The position numbers and the translations under genes are program-made. Shown here piece after piece: positions 5,456 to 12,636 of a stretch of DNA of 20,513 nucleotides (its first letter is position 1; each line of letters opens with the position of its first letter). The notes below the pieces were generated by a model. It did no database searches. It was not told where the DNA came from and saw only the letters and a list, made by a program, of their open reading frames with translations. Source of the stretch: a virus. Location: the IMG/VR virus record IMGVR_UViG_3300020448_001063, positions 1 through 20,513 of that record; one strand, given 5' to 3'.

Positions 5456-6646
5456 TTAAAAAAATGCTTCAAGTGTGGCGGGTTCTGGTTCTGACCAGAA
5501 AGTTTTTGTCTTGTTGCACTGTATTGCAAAGTTAGTTTTTTTCATCTGCGCTTTTCCATACAAAAAATTCTTAACGTTTTCTGCCATGTCACTTGCAGTT
5601 GTCACTGGAACATTTTGACATATCATATTTAAATTTTTGACACCTCCAACTAGATTAAAATCCTTAGGCATCTTCATAATATCTAGACACTCTCTTACAT
5701 TCAAGTATCTATCAGCATCTGGATGTGTAAGCATACTAGGGTATGCACCAACAAAGGCACCGATATAATCCTTAGGAACTACAACACCTCTTCTCATAAT
5801 GTTGCCTCCAGCCTTTAATTTATCTCCCATTCTCCTACACTTTATAGCATGATCAGTATAACCTTTCTTATCCGCCCACTCTGCGACTTCATAGTAATTA
5901 CTGCCATTGTCTTCAATATAGTGCATAATATCCCAAGTCTTATCGATCTTTTTTTGAAAATCAGTATGAGATATATTGTCATGCATTACTTCTAAAACGT
6001 ATTTGTAAAATAGATCTTCACTTGGCTTAGAAGTTTTAACCATAGTATCGGTCATAATATCAGGTTCGTTAGTTGCACTGCTTCTGATCTGATCAGCAAT
6101 ATTTTTATACGGTCTATTATAGTAACTAAATATTGGTACTTTATCTCCTTTCCAGAAGAAGTAAAATGCTCTATCTCTAACTTGACTCAATCCGTGAAGT
6201 ATAGATTTAGTTTTATAAAGACTCACAGTGTAACCTAACTCATCAGCCAGTTCTCTCATCTTACTAACAATAGGTTCTCCCATTTTGCTAGCAAGTCTAG
6301 GCGCGTTTTCTCCCCAGAAAACCTGAGGTTGAACGTTTTCTAATACATACTTAGCAGACTTAAGCATCCAATCGTTAGTAGGACTATCAGCGCTACTACT
6401 GGTATTAAGCGCAGAAAGGCCAGCACAAGGACAGACAGTGTTGACAACATCCACTCGAGAAGGAGCACTGCCACCCATATCAAGCTTAATATAAGGAACG
6501 TCGTTATTATAATGGTTAACAAGTTGACTATCATTTGCTTCAAAATCTGAGTATGAAAGAATGTACTCAGGACGAGTCCCGAATACATTTTCCATTGCGA
6601 ATGTTTCTCCACCTATAAGCGGAACTATGCTAGCATAACTATTCAT
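5456..6646 (-). CDS. divergent C5-cytosine DNA methyltransferase
   Basis: Predicted to transfer a one-carbon group to C5 of cytosine in DNA. From the ATG at 6646: motif IV with catalytic C74 (VCPCAGLS), motif VI ENAP (113-116), motif VIII QVRDR (155-159), motif IX RYLNVRECLDIM...PKDF (about 314-330), and motif X QNVPV (344-348). Motif I is degenerate: SIVPLIGGE replaces the usual FSGxGG. Length is 396 residues. The C-terminus PATLEAFF resembles the last residues of the phage's DNA polymerase and glycosyltransferase, a likely sliding-clamp tail. The ATG at 6646 overlaps the dehydrogenase stop by 8 bases and sits just before motif I; a TTG at 6715 would add 23 residues. It is the last gene of the sugar cassette. 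Why a hydroxymethylcytosine phage keeps this enzyme is unclear. Confidence 0.85.
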   Translation of the reverse strand: MNSYASIVPLIGGETFAMENVFGTRPEYILSYSDFEANDSQLVNHYNNDVPYIKLDMGGSAPSRVDVVNTVCPCAGLSALNTSSSADSPTNDWMLKSAKYVLENVQPQVFWGENAPRLASKMGEPIVSKMRELADELGYTVSLYKTKSILHGLSQVRDRAFYFFWKGDKVPIFSYYNRPYKNIADQIRSSATNEPDIMTDTMVKTSKPSEDLFYKYVLEVMHDNISHTDFQKKIDKTWDIMHYIEDNGSNYYEVAEWADKKGYTDHAIKCRRMGDKLKAGGNIMRRGVVVPKDYIGAFVGAYPSMLTHPDADRYLNVRECLDIMKMPKDFNLVGGVKNLNMICQNVPVTTASDMAENVKNFLYGKAQMKKTNFAIQCNKTKTFWSEPEPATLEAFF

Positions 6647-7481
6647 AAGAAACGTTCTGTGCTTTTTCTCTATCGCACTTTTCATAATCTTTTCTATATT
6701 TATTATTTTCTTCAACCGCTTTTTCTAAGAGAGAAAAGTTGTGATCTGAAAAGTGTATGAAGGCAGAGGTATCTTTAGGAAAACATGCTCCACCAAAACC
6801 ACGCCGGCCATCGTGCCCTGGAACACGTGTATGTGACTGACCTATTCTTGGATCCTCTCCGATTGCATTAATGATACGACCAAAGTTACCTCCAAATTTT
6901 TCTACTACATCATAGAACTGATTAAAGAATAAAACCTTTGTAGCAAGAAATGAATTGATTCCATACTTTACAAAAGAAGCGTCTGACGCTTCCATATGAA
7001 ATATTGGACATGGTTTACACAAGCTGTGTTGTTTATATATTTCCTCAACGTTTTTTGTAACAGCTGGACTTCCTCCAAAGATATGCATAGGAGGATTCAC
7101 AAAATCTTCCACAGCATTTTTTTCAGTTAAGAACTCAGGATTATAACACACTCTGTTCTTTCCAATCTGATGAGTAGAAAGTCTTTTAATAACATCTGGT
7201 GTAACAGTAGATTTAATTACAATTATACCGGATCTTCTTGTCATTAGTTTGTTTACAGAGTCTTCTACAATAGAAGTATTAACAGTTCCGTCATCTGCCA
7301 TTGGAGTGGGTACACATATAAAAGTAATATCTGCTTCTAGTGGTGATGTAGTTTCAATACTTTTGTTCTCATCGTAAATTGGATCAATAATTGTTTTTTC
7401 ACAAGTATGATCATTGAATCCATAATCTACAGCTTTACCTACAAATCCATGACCAACTATACACACTTTAAGTTTTTCCAT
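6639..7481 (-). CDS. ugd: UDP-glucose 6-dehydrogenase (short form)
   Basis: Predicted to oxidise UDP-glucose to UDP-glucuronate using two NAD+. The N-terminal dinucleotide-binding motif GHGFVG is at residues 10-15, CVPTPM at 56-61, NPEFLTE at 114-120, and the catalytic cysteine is C233 in GFGGACFPKD, all diagnostic of the UDP-glucose/GDP-mannose dehydrogenase family. At 280 residues it lacks the C-terminal UDP-binding domain of typical 390-450-residue enzymes, so it may be a minimal phage form. A one-base TAATG overlap links it to the upstream epimerase-like gene. Together they would make UDP-glucuronate and UDP-galacturonate. The nucleotide-sugar substrate (UDP-Glc versus another NDP-sugar) is inference from its partner. 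Confidence 0.88.
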   Translation of the reverse strand: MEKLKVCIVGHGFVGKAVDYGFNDHTCEKTIIDPIYDENKSIETTSPLEADITFICVPTPMADDGTVNTSIVEDSVNKLMTRRSGIIVIKSTVTPDVIKRLSTHQIGKNRVCYNPEFLTEKNAVEDFVNPPMHIFGGSPAVTKNVEEIYKQHSLCKPCPIFHMEASDASFVKYGINSFLATKVLFFNQFYDVVEKFGGNFGRIINAIGEDPRIGQSHTRVPGHDGRRGFGGACFPKDTSAFIHFSDHNFSLLEKAVEENNKYRKDYEKCDREKAQNVSYE

Positions 7482-8425
7482 TAATTAACTCCGTAATATT
7501 CTTTGTACCAAGTTATAAACTTTTCAACTCCAACCGGTACGGGGGTTGTAGGAACGTATCCTAATTTTCGAAGCTTAGTAGTATCAGACCATGTTTCAGG
7601 TGTATCTGCTGGATGAGCAGCCACTAATAACCTTTCAGTTTTTCTACCTAAGTTCTTTTCTATCTCATCAACAAAGTCAACTAACTCTACTTGAGTACCG
7701 TGACCAATATTATAAATCTCATGATAAGTTTCATTGCTCTCAACAATTTCATCAACTACGAGTTCAATACCTTGTACAATATCATCGACAAAAGTAAAGT
7801 CTCTTTTCATGTCTCCGTAGTTATAAAGCTCAATAGGTTTACCTGCTACAATAGAATCTGTAAAAGAAAAGAGCGCCATGTCTGGTCGACCATAAGGACC
7901 ATACACTGTAAAAAATCTTAGTCCTGCAGACCGTGACAACTTCGAATGCATAAATTGACATTCATTTGCTCGTTTTGACCAGCCATAAGGGTTGTTTTGG
8001 TGAAGTGGCCTATCATGCTCGTTCCATGGAAGTGGTTGACCGTGCATAACGCAACTGCTAGATGCGTATACAACTGGAATATCATGATTTTCTGCTACTT
8101 CAACAATCCTTTGAGTACCTGTTATATTAGTATCAATATAGGGTTGTGGTTCTGCAAGGGCGTGTCTTGGGTTTGCATATGCTGCTAGATGTAAGATACA
8201 ATCATAATCTTTTACATCATCTTCTAACATAGTGAAGTTCTGAATATCACCAGTAAGTGTTTCAATTCCTTCTTCTCTTAAAATAGTTGCTCTATCTTGT
8301 TTTAGTTTTACGTCATAGTAATCATTAAAATTATCTAGTCCTTTGACGTCCCACCCAGCATTTTTAAATGCAAGAGCGGAATGGAAGCCGATCATACCGG
8401 CTTGTCCAGTTATGAATATTTTCAT
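7481..8425 (-). CDS. SDR sugar-nucleotide epimerase, UDP-glucuronate 4-epimerase-like
   Basis: A 314-residue extended short-chain dehydrogenase. The NAD-binding motif is GQAGMIG (residues 7-13) and the catalytic triad is S122-124 with Y147xxxK151 (YGWSK). The stretches GLDNFNDYYDVKLKQ (29-43) and GLRFFTVYGPYGRPDMALF (168-186) are characteristic of UDP-glucuronate 4-epimerases (UDP-GlcA to UDP-GalA). Its nearest neighbour, UDP-glucose dehydrogenase, would supply that substrate. The related UDP-glucuronate decarboxylases (giving UDP-xylose) are the main alternative; the DNFNDYYD signature favours the epimerase. ATGA overlap with the upstream glycosyltransferase, one-base overlap with ugd downstream. 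Confidence 0.85.
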   Translation of the reverse strand: MKIFITGQAGMIGFHSALAFKNAGWDVKGLDNFNDYYDVKLKQDRATILREEGIETLTGDIQNFTMLEDDVKDYDCILHLAAYANPRHALAEPQPYIDTNITGTQRIVEVAENHDIPVVYASSSCVMHGQPLPWNEHDRPLHQNNPYGWSKRANECQFMHSKLSRSAGLRFFTVYGPYGRPDMALFSFTDSIVAGKPIELYNYGDMKRDFTFVDDIVQGIELVVDEIVESNETYHEIYNIGHGTQVELVDFVDEIEKNLGRKTERLLVAAHPADTPETWSDTTKLRKLGYVPTTPVPVGVEKFITWYKEYYGVN

Positions 8426-9666
8426 GCGAAAAACTCCTCTAGTCCTTGTGGTTGGTTTTCTTCAGTATTAATTGCAAGATCGACAATTTCGTTAACAACC
8501 ATCTCGCCATCTGAGTGCTGCTTCCAAAATTCAAATGCCATCTCTCTCCAATCATCTCTCATAGTAGGATCATTCTTTAGTCTGATCATTAGTTCGCGAC
8601 ACTCTTTAAAATTAGAATAGTCAAGGCCAATGGTGCCGCTGTTTTGGCATTGACTAATTGGTTTACCCTGCACAGGGTGAATTACGTTATCACAAAAGTG
8701 TTTATGAAATATAGGTACTGTTCCTGATGCAATACATTCTGCATGACAGTTTTCAATATTATCTCCATAAGTTTCTGCTTTTAAGTGATATAAGTCTGAA
8801 CCGAATGCTGATAGAGCCATTCTTTTCATACAATCTGAGTTTATATATTGAGGATATAAGTATGCACCTTTACCTGTAACTTCTTTTCCATATAGATCTG
8901 GTGTAAACTTAACGTCACCATGTTGTTTTTCTGGCCTGAAGTGATTCTCAACGATCCTTCTATCAACTGGATTCTCCTCTTTATTATCTCTATAAAGAAC
9001 AAGTGGATATTGAATAGAAGCTTCTAGTCCTTCAAGAACAGTTATGAATCCATTGTTCATTAATTCATCTTGGTGATAATCAATCATGAGACTAGGACCC
9101 TTCCACATAGCAGTACGTCCTATCCAGCGAATCATATTATCTTGTTGCTCTTCAATAGGCCTCCAGTATTTTTCTCTGTGTCCTTCATAATCAAAACCTA
9201 AAGCCATCTTCGTAAGTGGGGTCTTAATATTATTCTTTTTCATGAACTTTGAAAAATCATTTTCAAGCGAGTGAGTCATGATAACATCAACACTCATACA
9301 AACATCTGCTAAATTTGCATTACGTGCAATAGATGCTGCTTTATGATCTACATTGATAAATGCTTTTCGGATATGAACACGATCAAGAAACTTTAACCAG
9401 TTGTCTTTACAATCTTGAGGGTGAGACTTTGAAGGAACAGAATATACGATACATAGTTCATGTGAATTTACAATTGCAGCCATAGCTTCCCATTCACGAC
9501 CTAAGTTCATTTCCATTTGATCAATTTCTAAACCTTTTGCTCTTCCCCACTTTTTATCGTTTGCAGATAAGATCTTTGCACCTGTAACTTTTTGCATTTG
9601 TATTGCGCATTGTGTTACACCGCAACCTTCAGTACCACGACCAAGTACAATAATTATTTTATTCAT
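8422..9666 (-). CDS. agt: DNA hydroxymethylcytosine glycosyltransferase, T4 alpha-glucosyltransferase homologue
   Basis: Predicted to transfer a sugar from a UDP-sugar to 5-hydroxymethylcytosine in DNA. It aligns with T4 AGT (GT-B fold): RGTEGCGVT (10-18) versus RGLEGCGVT; VDHKAASIARN (106-116) versus the T4 QHDHSVLSLRRN region; IRWIGRTAMWKG (179-190) versus NRWIGRTTTWKG; QYINSDCMKRM (273-283) versus CYINSEMLERM; and ECIASGTVPIF (310-320) versus ELGACGTIPVF. Length is 414 residues (T4 400). The start ATG follows GGAGGAATAA directly after the UDG-like gene. The C-terminal LEEFFA is a likely clamp-binding tail; T4 AGT is reported to interact with gp45. The donor sugar may differ from glucose because UDP-glucose dehydrogenase and an epimerase follow immediately. 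Confidence 0.9.
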   Translation of the reverse strand: MNKIIIVLGRGTEGCGVTQCAIQMQKVTGAKILSANDKKWGRAKGLEIDQMEMNLGREWEAMAAIVNSHELCIVYSVPSKSHPQDCKDNWLKFLDRVHIRKAFINVDHKAASIARNANLADVCMSVDVIMTHSLENDFSKFMKKNNIKTPLTKMALGFDYEGHREKYWRPIEEQQDNMIRWIGRTAMWKGPSLMIDYHQDELMNNGFITVLEGLEASIQYPLVLYRDNKEENPVDRRIVENHFRPEKQHGDVKFTPDLYGKEVTGKGAYLYPQYINSDCMKRMALSAFGSDLYHLKAETYGDNIENCHAECIASGTVPIFHKHFCDNVIHPVQGKPISQCQNSGTIGLDYSNFKECRELMIRLKNDPTMRDDWREMAFEFWKQHSDGEMVVNEIVDLAINTEENQPQGLEEFFA

Positions 9667-10076: not shown

Positions 10077-10394
10077 CTATTTTGTTTGGTTTTCTAAAGC
10101 TTTTTTTAACGCTCTTTCGAGATCATTATCAGCTTCCTCGGCCATCTGTTGATAAGGGTCAACTGGCTGGAACTTTTTCTTCATTTCTAATAAATCGTAT
10201 TCTATGTCTTGACTTGTTCTAACTTTAGTTTCTTTAATAGGAAGAACTTTTATTATGGACACGTCTTTTTCTGAAGGACCTAGATGCTTTTGCATTAAGA
10301 ATATTCTTTCTTTAACATTAGATACTTTATCTTCTAAGTTATCCAGTCTGCTATAGGCTTTTGCTAAATCCAAAAGTTGCTTACTCTTGTCCAT
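10077..10394 (-). CDS. hypothetical helical protein, 105 residues
   Basis: A charged, mostly helical protein. Residues about 1-40 have a coiled-coil-like pattern (LAKAYSRLDNLEDKVSNVKE). A mixed central part (VSIIKVLPIKETKVRTSQDI) follows, then a DLLEMKKKFQPVDPY linker and an acidic-to-basic helical tail ending in ALKKALENQTK. Not recognised. The ATG overlaps the SPASM-like gene's stop by 14 bases. It is the last gene before the 10048-10076 promoter, so it closes the gp42/radical-SAM transcription unit. Confidence 0.65.
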   Translation of the reverse strand: MDKSKQLLDLAKAYSRLDNLEDKVSNVKERIFLMQKHLGPSEKDVSIIKVLPIKETKVRTSQDIEYDLLEMKKKFQPVDPYQQMAEEADNDLERALKKALENQTK

Positions 10395-10803
10395 CCTTCG
10401 TAATTCCTAAAAGTTTCTCTTTCTCTAAAATACTATTTTTTTGTTGATTCAGTTGTTTTACATATGAAGAGTATGAGTGCTGATTACCGTCATCATCTAT
10501 AACGACGCCACATGATGTTTTACATCTACTTCCAGCTTCTTTAGGTTTAAATAATATTTTTCTATAAAAGTTTTTCCATTGTCTTGAATTAAGAGCATCA
10601 TCTGGAGTAATTCCATTTTTAACATTAAGTTCTTTATTGTATATTCCTCCAGGATTTTCTTTTCTGTCAAATGCATTGTCCATCCAACAACAAGGAACAT
10701 AATAACCAGATGCTGAGAATGCCATGCACTGACCCATTCCATTTATATCTATATCACCATTTTCTAAAAAAGGAAAACATTTGGGAATAATCTTAAGCTG
10801 CAT
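10381..10803 (-). CDS. stand-alone SPASM-like iron-sulfur protein
   Basis: A 140-residue cysteine-rich protein. From the ATG at 10803 the cysteines are at about 9, 26, 38, 39, 94 and 98. The pattern CxxF...C, then SGYYVPCC, then NSRQWKNFYRKILF...CKTSCG closely resembles the SPASM auxiliary-cluster domain that normally forms the C-terminus of radical SAM maturases (Gly-Tyr-x-x-Cys-Cys, then NS-x-W-K-x-F, then CxxxC). The radical SAM core is encoded immediately upstream (20-base maximum overlap), so the two probably form one enzyme split into two chains. A GTG at 10812 is an alternative start. The SPASM call is by pattern; the function of the pair is unknown. Confidence 0.7.
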   Translation of the reverse strand: MQLKIIPKCFPFLENGDIDINGMGQCMAFSASGYYVPCCWMDNAFDRKENPGGIYNKELNVKNGITPDDALNSRQWKNFYRKILFKPKEAGSRCKTSCGVVIDDDGNQHSYSSYVKQLNQQKNSILEKEKLLGITKDGQE

Positions 10804-11566
10804 ACTTGTCACGCTCTTTTTTATATTCTTCTATATTATCTATGACTAAAGAAGACGCGAATCCTGTACCTGATAAGTGATAAGGATTTTTTGGAGGTGC
10901 AACATGATGACCAAAGTGTGAATCAAACCTACTGGATCTATGTAGAATAAATTCTATATTTTTATCTAGAGCGTATTCTGCCGCAACTACTACATCGTTT
11001 TCATTATACTCAAATGGAATGTACTGCCATGACACCTTTAACTTATCATTAGCTACAGTTGCACAGTAATCCATAGCTGCGCATGCACTGTCCCAGTCTT
11101 GATTCTTTCTGTGTATTGAACATGATTTACCAACACCGTCTATACCAAAGATTATATTTGAAGTGTAATTACCTTGTAATAACAGATGACATAGTTTTTG
11201 CCACCACTGCTTTTTCTTTCCAGAACCGTTAGTGTGAATCTCTAAATGTTGAAAGGTCGTTTCATTCAGGACTTCTATTATTCCTAATAGATTTTTGTGA
11301 TATATGGGATCAGATATTTGACCACATAAAAAAATCTTTTTAAACGAATTACCCATGATTCTAGCATCATCTTCTGTTAAGTCACCGTATTCTTTTCCAG
11401 CTTGTTTAACAAAATTCTTACCATCTCTAGGATCTTGCCTAATACAATATGCACACTCAAGAAGACACCTGTGAGAGGTATCAACATTAATAAATCTCTT
11501 TTGAGCTATTCTAGTGAAGTGATTATAGTACAGATCAAAATGTTTTTCTAGATTAGATAAACTCAA
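10793..11566 (-). CDS. radical SAM protein
   Basis: A 257-residue radical SAM core with the [4Fe-4S]-binding CxxxCxxC motif (CLLECAYC, about residues 34-41) after a FINVDTSHR strand, followed by a LEIHTNGSG motif and NIIFGIDG, as in SPASM-type enzymes. The N-terminus is short and there is no C-terminal auxiliary-cluster domain in this chain; that part appears to be the next gene. TTG at 11566 has GGGAG 6 bases upstream; a TTG at 11572 is possible but too close to it. It overlaps the dCMP deaminase gene by 14 bases. It could modify a peptide, sugar or nucleotide. Its place directly after gp42 and dCMP deaminase hints at nucleotide modification, but this is inference. Confidence 0.85.
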   Translation of the reverse strand: MSLSNLEKHFDLYYNHFTRIAQKRFINVDTSHRCLLECAYCIRQDPRDGKNFVKQAGKEYGDLTEDDARIMGNSFKKIFLCGQISDPIYHKNLLGIIEVLNETTFQHLEIHTNGSGKKKQWWQKLCHLLLQGNYTSNIIFGIDGVGKSCSIHRKNQDWDSACAAMDYCATVANDKLKVSWQYIPFEYNENDVVVAAEYALDKNIEFILHRSSRFDSHFGHHVAPPKNPYHLSGTGFASSLVIDNIEEYKKERDKYAA

Positions 11567-11987
11567 ATGCAACTCCCGCTTCAGTAAACATAGACTGCGT
11601 TAAGCCCCATGATTCTTTCCAGCGGTCGGTGATTTCTTGTTTTGGCATAACTACTCTTTTTACACCTACTTGTACTATTCCTTTTGCACAATCTGAGCAA
11701 CAAGGAAGTCCTACAACATAAAAGGTACTACCTTCTAGTGATATACCACTAAAGGCAGCATTGAATATAGTATTCATCTCTGCATGTACAATATACTTAA
11801 GTTTGATTTCTCTATTTTCTAATCTATCATTATCTGATATGCTACGAGGAAACCCATTATAACCTTGTGCTAGAACTTGACCCTTTTCGCCAATAGCAAC
11901 GCATCCAATCTTAGATGATGGATCCTTTGACCATTTAGATATTCTTTCAGCCAGCTCTAAGTATCGCTTATCCCATTTATTTGACAA
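11553..11987 (-). CDS. cd: dCMP deaminase
   Basis: Deaminates dCMP to dUMP, feeding thymidylate synthesis by ThyX. Zinc-site motifs are HAE (about residues 68-70, HAEMNTIFNAA) and CSDC (about 97-100, in LPCCSDCAKGIVQVG). The N-terminus SNKWDKRYLELAERISKWSKD matches the usual start of dCMP deaminases, so I chose the TTG at 11987, with AAAGG about 10 bases upstream. An ATG at 12011 would add 8 residues inside gp42 without a ribosome binding site. Length is 144 residues; T4 Cd is 193 with an extra insertion. It competes with the adjacent gp42 for dCMP, so both genes together set the dTMP to hydroxymethyl-dCMP ratio. Confidence 0.92.
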   Translation of the reverse strand: MSNKWDKRYLELAERISKWSKDPSSKIGCVAIGEKGQVLAQGYNGFPRSISDNDRLENREIKLKYIVHAEMNTIFNAAFSGISLEGSTFYVVGLPCCSDCAKGIVQVGVKRVVMPKQEITDRWKESWGLTQSMFTEAGVAFEFI

Positions 11988-12636
11988 GATGAAAGTGCCT
12001 TTCGTAAACATGTAGATTTTGTACTTGCCATGTTATAAAGCCCGTTTCAATTCCTAACATTTCTGCTAGTTCTTTTTGAACAAATCTTTGCCAGGCGTAA
12101 TCATTTTTATATCCATATACAACATCATTTGACCGCATTTGAACTACAGCTTGCAACTCGTCATTTCGAATATAGTAAGTAACTGAATTAGTACAAATAA
12201 AGTCGTTCTTACCATCTTCATTATATTCATGCCAGATAGACGGACGATTGTAAATCATTGAGGCCCTACGACCATCTGGATTATCTCGCAATTCTCTGTA
12301 AACGTTTCCAAACTGGTTATAGTATTTATCACTGTAAATTAGTTTACCATAATTAGAATTAATCTCACCTTCTTTATTTGCTGAGTACTGCCAAGCTGCC
12401 GGTGGTTCTGGTTTATCCCATATGTCATTAATATTAGTAGACTCAGACTTATACCACTTTAGTTCTGCATCAATATACTCATTGTTTGGTTCACCAAAGA
12501 TAGCTGGCTCATCTGCTAGAAAAGAAGCACCGAGTAGTTCAATTGTTTTTTGACCTGTTTTATCTAACTCAAAAGCTTCATCATTAAGTTCATCAATAAA
12601 GTATTGACGAATATCTTTAACACTATATGTTATCAT
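11977..12636 (-). CDS. 42: deoxycytidylate 5-hydroxymethyltransferase gp42
   Basis: Makes 5-hydroxymethyl-dCMP from dCMP and methylenetetrahydrofolate, so that hydroxymethylcytosine replaces cytosine in phage DNA. It is clearly homologous to T4 gp42: LDKTGQKTIELLGASFLADE, KGEINSNYG, RRASMIYNRPS, DFICTNSVTYYIR, MRSNDVVYGYKNDYAWQ. The catalytic C148 and the D179 that distinguishes dCMP from dUMP specificity fall at the same residue numbers as in T4. At 219 residues it ends just after VYERHFHLVK, so about 25 residues of the T4 tail are absent. It overlaps the nucleotidyltransferase gene upstream by 14 bases and is followed by dCMP deaminase. Confidence 0.95.
   Translation of the reverse strand: MITYSVKDIRQYFIDELNDEAFELDKTGQKTIELLGASFLADEPAIFGEPNNEYIDAELKWYKSESTNINDIWDKPEPPAAWQYSANKEGEINSNYGKLIYSDKYYNQFGNVYRELRDNPDGRRASMIYNRPSIWHEYNEDGKNDFICTNSVTYYIRNDELQAVVQMRSNDVVYGYKNDYAWQRFVQKELAEMLGIETGFITWQVQNLHVYERHFHLVK

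Follow-up and report, generated by a model that had tools for sequence, protein, structure and literature searches.

A probable two-chain Twitch-type radical SAM enzyme in marine phages and its variant beside hydroxymethylcytosine genes

Introduction

Can a radical SAM enzyme be divided between two phage genes, and if so, on what would such an enzyme act? This question is raised by two overlapping genes, here termed R and S, in the DNA of a marine T4-like phage, 20,513 nucleotides long (IMG/VR record IMGVR_UViG_3300020448_001063, positions 1 to 20,513), the whole of which is termed the window. In the SPASM and Twitch enzymes otherwise known to us, the auxiliary cluster is carried by the C-terminal part of the radical SAM chain itself. 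A first-pass annotation of the window had proposed that R and S are the separated core and SPASM-like chains of one such enzyme, and that their site suggests a radical step in nucleotide, sugar, or peptide modification.

The two kinds of auxiliary domain are distinguished by their clusters: SPASM has seven cysteines and two clusters, and Twitch, or half-SPASM, has one cluster (PMC6231123). Many radical SAM genes of T4-like marine phages and of Campylobacter phages have been published (PMC5332604, PMC7029224, PMC2853527); the open-access literature that we searched contained no description of a Twitch domain on a chain of its own, of the two gene orders, or of fusions of this chain.

Results

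The positions of R, S, and the neighboring genes on which the analysis relied are listed in Table 1. R contains, within a radical SAM core, the CX3CX2C motif by which the superfamily is recognized (C36-LLE-C40-AY-C43), and the C-terminus of the window protein carries neither an auxiliary cysteine cluster nor an auxiliary domain, in agreement with the first-pass annotation. The cluster-motif cysteines were conserved at 99% in 92 non-redundant R domains. An extra cysteine preceded GQ in the motif CGQxSDP (C83 in the window R) in approximately 92% of the R domains; as a guess, this residue might act as a hydrogen donor for epimerization. The NCBIfam radical SAM models matched R at 2.8e-8 at best, with all matches far under the curated cut-offs, and Pfam PF04055 matched the window R at 0.11. 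NF033640 (N_Twi_rSAM) scored 30.2 bits against R and 27.6 bits in the genome search, and membership of this family was rejected at its curated cut-off of 170 bits.

Table 1. Positions of R, S, and neighboring features in the window
Feature	Position	Strand	Remarks
Short UDP-glucose dehydrogenase-like gene	6639..7481	minus	TIGR03026 5.7e-45, below cut-off
NAD-dependent epimerase/dehydratase-type sugar gene	7481..8425	minus	NCBIfam sugar-epimerase matches below cut-off
DNA alpha-glucosyltransferase (AGT) homologue	8422..9666	minus	PF11440 9.8e-32; PHROG 2888 5.4e-67
S, putative Twitch-like auxiliary-cluster chain	10381..10812	minus	143 aa from GTG; 140 aa from ATG 10803
Overlap of R 3' end and S start	10793..10812	minus	
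R, radical SAM core chain	10793..11572	minus	259 aa, TTG start
dCMP deaminase gene	11553..12011	minus	PF00383 7.3e-20; immediate upstream neighbor of R in the window clade, order conserved
gp42 dCMP hydroxymethylase gene	11977..12636	minus	7.6e-67 to T4 1b49

The likelier start codon of S is the ATG rather than the GTG, and this ATG sits just ahead of the TAA stop codon of R. The window S contains six cysteines (positions 12, 29, 41, 42, 97, and 101), of which C12, C41, C42, C97, and C101 were invariant in a 69-row family alignment, and C29 was confined to part of the window clade. A Twitch domain has a cysteine before a hairpin, G-X4-C after the hairpin, and two cysteines past the second helix (PMC6231123). 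The window S exhibits this pattern as C12, G36-X4-C41, and C97-X3-C101, and the complete set was present in 66 of the 69 S proteins. The cysteine-to-glycine spacing is 23 in the window S, outside the CX9-15G of Twitch, and is 11-13 in 36 of the 69 family members. At E values of 0.1 or lower, the Pfam SPASM model PF13186 matched 49 of 70 relatives of S, more than chance would give, with 2.5e-9 as the best value; it did not match the window S itself. The six cysteines had initially been read as a SPASM pattern; the count was correct, but a full two-cluster SPASM domain was ruled out because six cysteines, five of them conserved, are too few for the seven-cysteine motif. Judged by these residues, S resembles a one-cluster Twitch domain more than SPASM and is predicted to bind a cluster.

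Profile scans of IMG/VR revealed at least 80 loci each for R and for S. Clustering at 85% identity yielded 108 non-redundant R genes among the matches listed, and by a nearest-neighbor rule S lay downstream of R in 46, lay upstream in 34, and was fused to R in 12, the remaining 16 R genes either standing alone or being truncated where the contig stops. Among the 34 upstream cases, at least two (L012:5932 and L020:3476) are R-to-S pairs with another S nearer upstream. A separate adjacent S, in one order or the other, thus accompanied 80 of the 108 R genes listed, although these counts are not prevalence estimates because both scans began from split proteins. The two genes overlapped or touched in 73 of the 80 split pairs, nearly all in different frames. 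A quick tree of the 92 R domains required 11 changes of gene order or fusion state, which is an upper figure because some rows were mislabeled.

The window has two overlapping open reading frames in place of the single chain of core and auxiliary domain that is expected of SPASM/Twitch enzymes, and R and S are fused in some relatives only. Residues 8-325 of one natural fusion (L058) aligned end to end with the two chains of the isolated Pelagibacter phage Mosig (53.6%); what is a single chain in one phage thus corresponds to two chains in another. Mosig resembles the window in having separate chains, 00084 (211 aa, 33.5% identical to the window R) and 00085 (112 aa); they are annotated as a MoaA-like enzyme and a hypothetical protein, and the split is absent from the annotation. 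A pattern scan of genome contigs, the narrow patterns of which give no measure of absence from cells, returned a single contig (L163; NYSS01000204.1, from a Planctomycetota MAG bin), and this is probably a phage contig because its length and its match are those of the viral record L067 (IMGVR_UViG_2786546503_000002).

An apparent split can arise by frameshift: in Citrobacter phage IME-CF2, a radical SAM/SPASM gene appears divided into gp040 and gp041 (L253:26837-27990), a frameshifted copy of a gene that encodes a 384-aa single chain in RB16; a relative was present in 173 phage records. An assembly or frameshift artefact, or an S that is an unrelated zinc protein, is nevertheless a very improbable account of the pair studied here. 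The 80 non-redundant pairs occurred in both gene orders with their own start codons, near-identical copies of the window pair were present in two further contigs, and selection appears to act on both chains, as described below; the PF13186 matches also argue against an unrelated zinc protein. On the basis of the many independent pairs, both orders, and selection on both chains, a frameshift artefact was ruled out for the window. The split is real and widespread in marine phages.

The distance matrices of R and S from 77 pairs were correlated (Mantel r 0.70; maximum of 500 permutations 0.20), although such mirrored trees are weak evidence taken alone because adjacent genes co-inherit. In contigs with several pairs, 17 cases were informative, and in 14 of these R followed the S of its own pair; the four tandem copies of L088 tie in this comparison. 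Between the window and L004, the NG86 dN/dS values of the two chains were 0.147 and 0.126, with dS near saturation; the L020-L039 comparison of S gave 0.87 over 90 codons. In the window clade, purifying selection thus seems to act on both chains. Tandem R-S pairs were also observed, two each in L012:4972-7123 and L087:4168-6351. Pair 2 was 92-96% identical between these two loci and pair 1 was 62-71% identical, and this far greater likeness of pair 2 suggests that a pair is exchanged as a unit.

The conserved pairing, natural fusions, mirrored trees, and PF13186 matches in relatives uphold the proposal of a radical SAM enzyme split into core and auxiliary chains. We also looked for fused relatives with a known unrelated role; fusions exist, and none was found to which such a role has been assigned. 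R and S very probably constitute a two-chain Twitch-type radical SAM enzyme.

The AlphaFold model of S had a mean pLDDT of 89. A Foldseek search with this isolated model found no relative in the PDB, and its matches in the BFVD library were small phage proteins (best E 3.5e-6). When the S profile was compared with the PDB, the best match, a weak one, was BtrN (E 0.36), the butirosin Twitch dehydrogenase. BtrN has one Twitch auxiliary cluster and a sugar-like substrate, as proposed for R/S, but it is a single chain without close sequence similarity, and its relation to S is apparent only at the level of the domain type. The SPASM enzymes anSME, PqqE, SuiB, and CteB share with R/S the combination of a radical SAM core and an auxiliary-cluster domain, whereas they have two auxiliary clusters and seven cysteines on one chain.

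In the AlphaFold model of the L058 fusion, confidence values were mostly >90 in the core, approximately 70-83 in the S part, and <50 in the linker. Foldseek matched this model to BlsE (the top match, 3.3e-7), MoaA, anSME, and SkfB; the BlsE, MoaA, and anSME matches span both domains only at an rmsd of 13-16 A, and the placement of the domains in the model is therefore unreliable. Viperin matches covered the core alone, at 3-5 A. BlsE is the radical SAM decarboxylase of blasticidin S and acts on cytosylglucuronic acid (PMC3715490). This match is suggestive because the sugar acid on which BlsE acts is linked to cytosine and a UDP-glucose dehydrogenase-like gene is present in the window; it is a lead only, because other radical SAM structures score similarly. 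BlsE differs from R/S in being a single chain, with 14% identity and an rmsd of 13 A over the full alignment.

In the window, the minus-strand order begins with pol gp43 and, farther on, runs cytidylyltransferase, gp42, dCMP deaminase, R, S, a 105-aa protein, a UDG-like protein, AGT, epimerase, UDP-glucose dehydrogenase-like gene, C5-methyltransferase-like gene, UvsX, gp41, and, after an interval, ThyX; pol, UvsX, gp41, and ThyX are presumed identities, based on sequence and general knowledge. The gp42 protein resembles T4 gp42 more than it does thymidylate synthases (1.4e-11 for the best of them, against the T4 value in Table 1), and its RNDYAWQ aligns with RNDYAWQ of T4, with Asp at position 179, as in a dCMP hydroxymethylase. 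The gp42 and AGT matches confirmed the described site of the pair, after gp42 and the dCMP deaminase and before glycosylation genes. The UDP-glucose dehydrogenase-like protein has only 280 aa and appears to lack the usual C-terminal part, because the family match stops at 297 of 413. A C5-cytosine methyltransferase homologue (5456-6715; PF00145 2.4e-18) is kept in this locus of hydroxymethylcytosine (hmC)/AGT phages with and without R/S; the carboxymethyltransferase of cyanophage S-B43 is related to C5-cytosine methyltransferases (PMC12783734).

The window clade (8 R genes; 100% SH-aLRT) was found only in the slot between the dCMP deaminase and AGT genes of hmC phages, with all its R genes downstream of the dCMP deaminase. 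L012 and L087 have both of their pairs at this site. Most of the other R/S records searched, including Mosig, had no close gp42 match. As a control, 45 AGT loci in which the upstream sequence was long enough were compared, and R was present in 12 and absent from 33; the 12 represent about six independent loci, one with R elsewhere (L239). Slots without R/S were short or, as in L199, L203, L220, and L224, contained methyltransferases, a 2OG-Fe(II) oxygenase, or lipoprotein-like pairs. R/S is therefore optional cargo of the hmC-glucosylation locus, and the control weakened the use of the hmC neighborhood as proof of DNA modification. The earlier argument from placement to a nucleotide or sugar step held insofar as the window clade is confined to this slot, but the slot also takes unrelated cargo, and many R/S phages have no gp42 match.

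The R and S proteins of the window were 42-43% and 32-47% identical, respectively, to those of the more distant clade members, against 79-83% for AGT, 76-92% for UvsX, and 55-71% for the dCMP deaminase; the pair therefore diverges faster than its flanks or is swapped. Such divergence would be expected of a diversifying decoration step, but also of loosely constrained cargo.

Because the pair adjoins the dCMP deaminase and gp42 genes, its substrate might be a nucleotide or base (dCMP, hmdCMP, or CTP) rather than a sugar added later, and the fused model does match the structures of viperin (CTP) and MoaA (GTP). These structural matches, however, correspond to the shared radical SAM fold, relatives without gp42 are common, and S fuses to a glycosyltransferase and not to nucleotide enzymes. 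We consider a nucleotide substrate improbable.

Across the family, 137 proteins lay within three genes of split pairs, including 18 other radical SAM proteins, 12 DegT aminotransferases, 9 nitroreductases, 6 carbamoyltransferases, and 6 glycosyltransferases. The pair, when sought in other phages as had been advised, thus occurs with sugar enzymes and other radical SAM genes. S was fused to the N-terminus of a Mosig-00092-family protein in L147 and L153, and this family matches a PHROG glycosyltransferase (4.7e-17); in L060 and L070, S was fused to the C-terminus of a Mosig-00083-family protein. The S-glycosyltransferase fusions and the sugar-enzyme neighbors favor sugar tailoring. The initial choice of nucleotide, sugar, or peptide is thereby narrowed toward sugar, with no positive evidence for peptide in these fusions and neighbors. 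Modification of a peptide or protein, in the manner of RiPP enzymes or sulfatase maturases, would be typical of many SPASM/Twitch enzymes, and the weak NCBIfam matches of the pair are to maturases; yet no precursor-like gene or RRE domain was noticed among open reading frames of at least 50 aa, and the surroundings are sugar and DNA enzymes. We regard a peptide substrate as quite improbable.

Several minor observations concern the same neighborhoods. The Mosig 00083 family (L001:11099-11965 and relatives) was near R-S in 23 loci and had no match in Pfam, PHROG, or the PDB. In L032, R was fused to a PP-loop-type N-terminal part. Of 15 records searched, 5 contained PF01521 Fe-S carrier genes, which showed no clear association with R/S.

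Discussion

The explanation that we favor is a two-chain Twitch radical SAM enzyme that tailors a sugar, a combined reading to which we assign slightly less than an even chance. From the comparisons above, we infer an R-S complex, cluster binding, a sugar substrate, the type of reaction, and DNA as the carrier. R would bind the catalytic [4Fe-4S] cluster and SAM and generate the 5'-deoxyadenosyl radical. S would dock at the site usually occupied by the C-terminal Twitch domain and, by means of C12, C41 (or C42), C97, and C101, contribute a single auxiliary Fe-S cluster. The reaction may be a radical oxidation, epimerization, or decarboxylation that takes place at an unactivated C-H of the sugar and in which the auxiliary cluster accepts an electron, a role that has been suggested for it in BtrN. 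In its logic, the system most nearly resembles BtrN acting ahead of an aminotransferase.

For the window clade, the best candidate would be the sugar transferred to hydroxymethylcytosine by the AGT homologue, or the UDP-sugar that serves as its donor, and R/S might then be an optional extra decoration step on DNA. DNA is a plausible substrate in this clade, although this reading is weakened because the slot between the deaminase and AGT genes takes unrelated cargo too. The fuller proposal, in which R/S rewrites the sugar on glycosylated hmC as a swappable, fast-diverging last step of hypermodification, is rather unlikely. The enzyme might instead act on a cell-surface glycan or a small aminosugar, with the hmC slot merely accepting any cargo. 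Most of the family resides in islands that also carry genes for DegT, carbamoyltransferase, and glycosyltransferase; unlike the window, Mosig carries its pair in a DegT/carbamoyltransferase/nitroreductase island and has no gp42 match; the deaminase-AGT slot holds unrelated genes; and the host-recognition region of pelagimyophages has been reported to contain radical SAM cassettes (PMC7029224). By contrast, the eight R genes of the window clade are monophyletic and occur in the hmC slot only, and the window contains neither DegT nor carbamoyltransferase. We consider a glycan or aminosugar substrate possible but somewhat doubtful.

A separate auxiliary subunit, occurring in either gene order and with other fusion partners, would permit clean add-back and swap tests of the role of the auxiliary cluster. 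The S family also offers a likely role for small cysteine-rich phage open reading frames that are annotated as hypothetical. If the window clade does act on glycosylated hmC, radical chemistry would join the routes of DNA hypermodification.

Radical SAM proteins of Campylobacter phage CP220 and of Pseudoteven- and Slopek-type phages, several of which are related at 26-28%, differ from R/S in being single chains of 326-384 aa.
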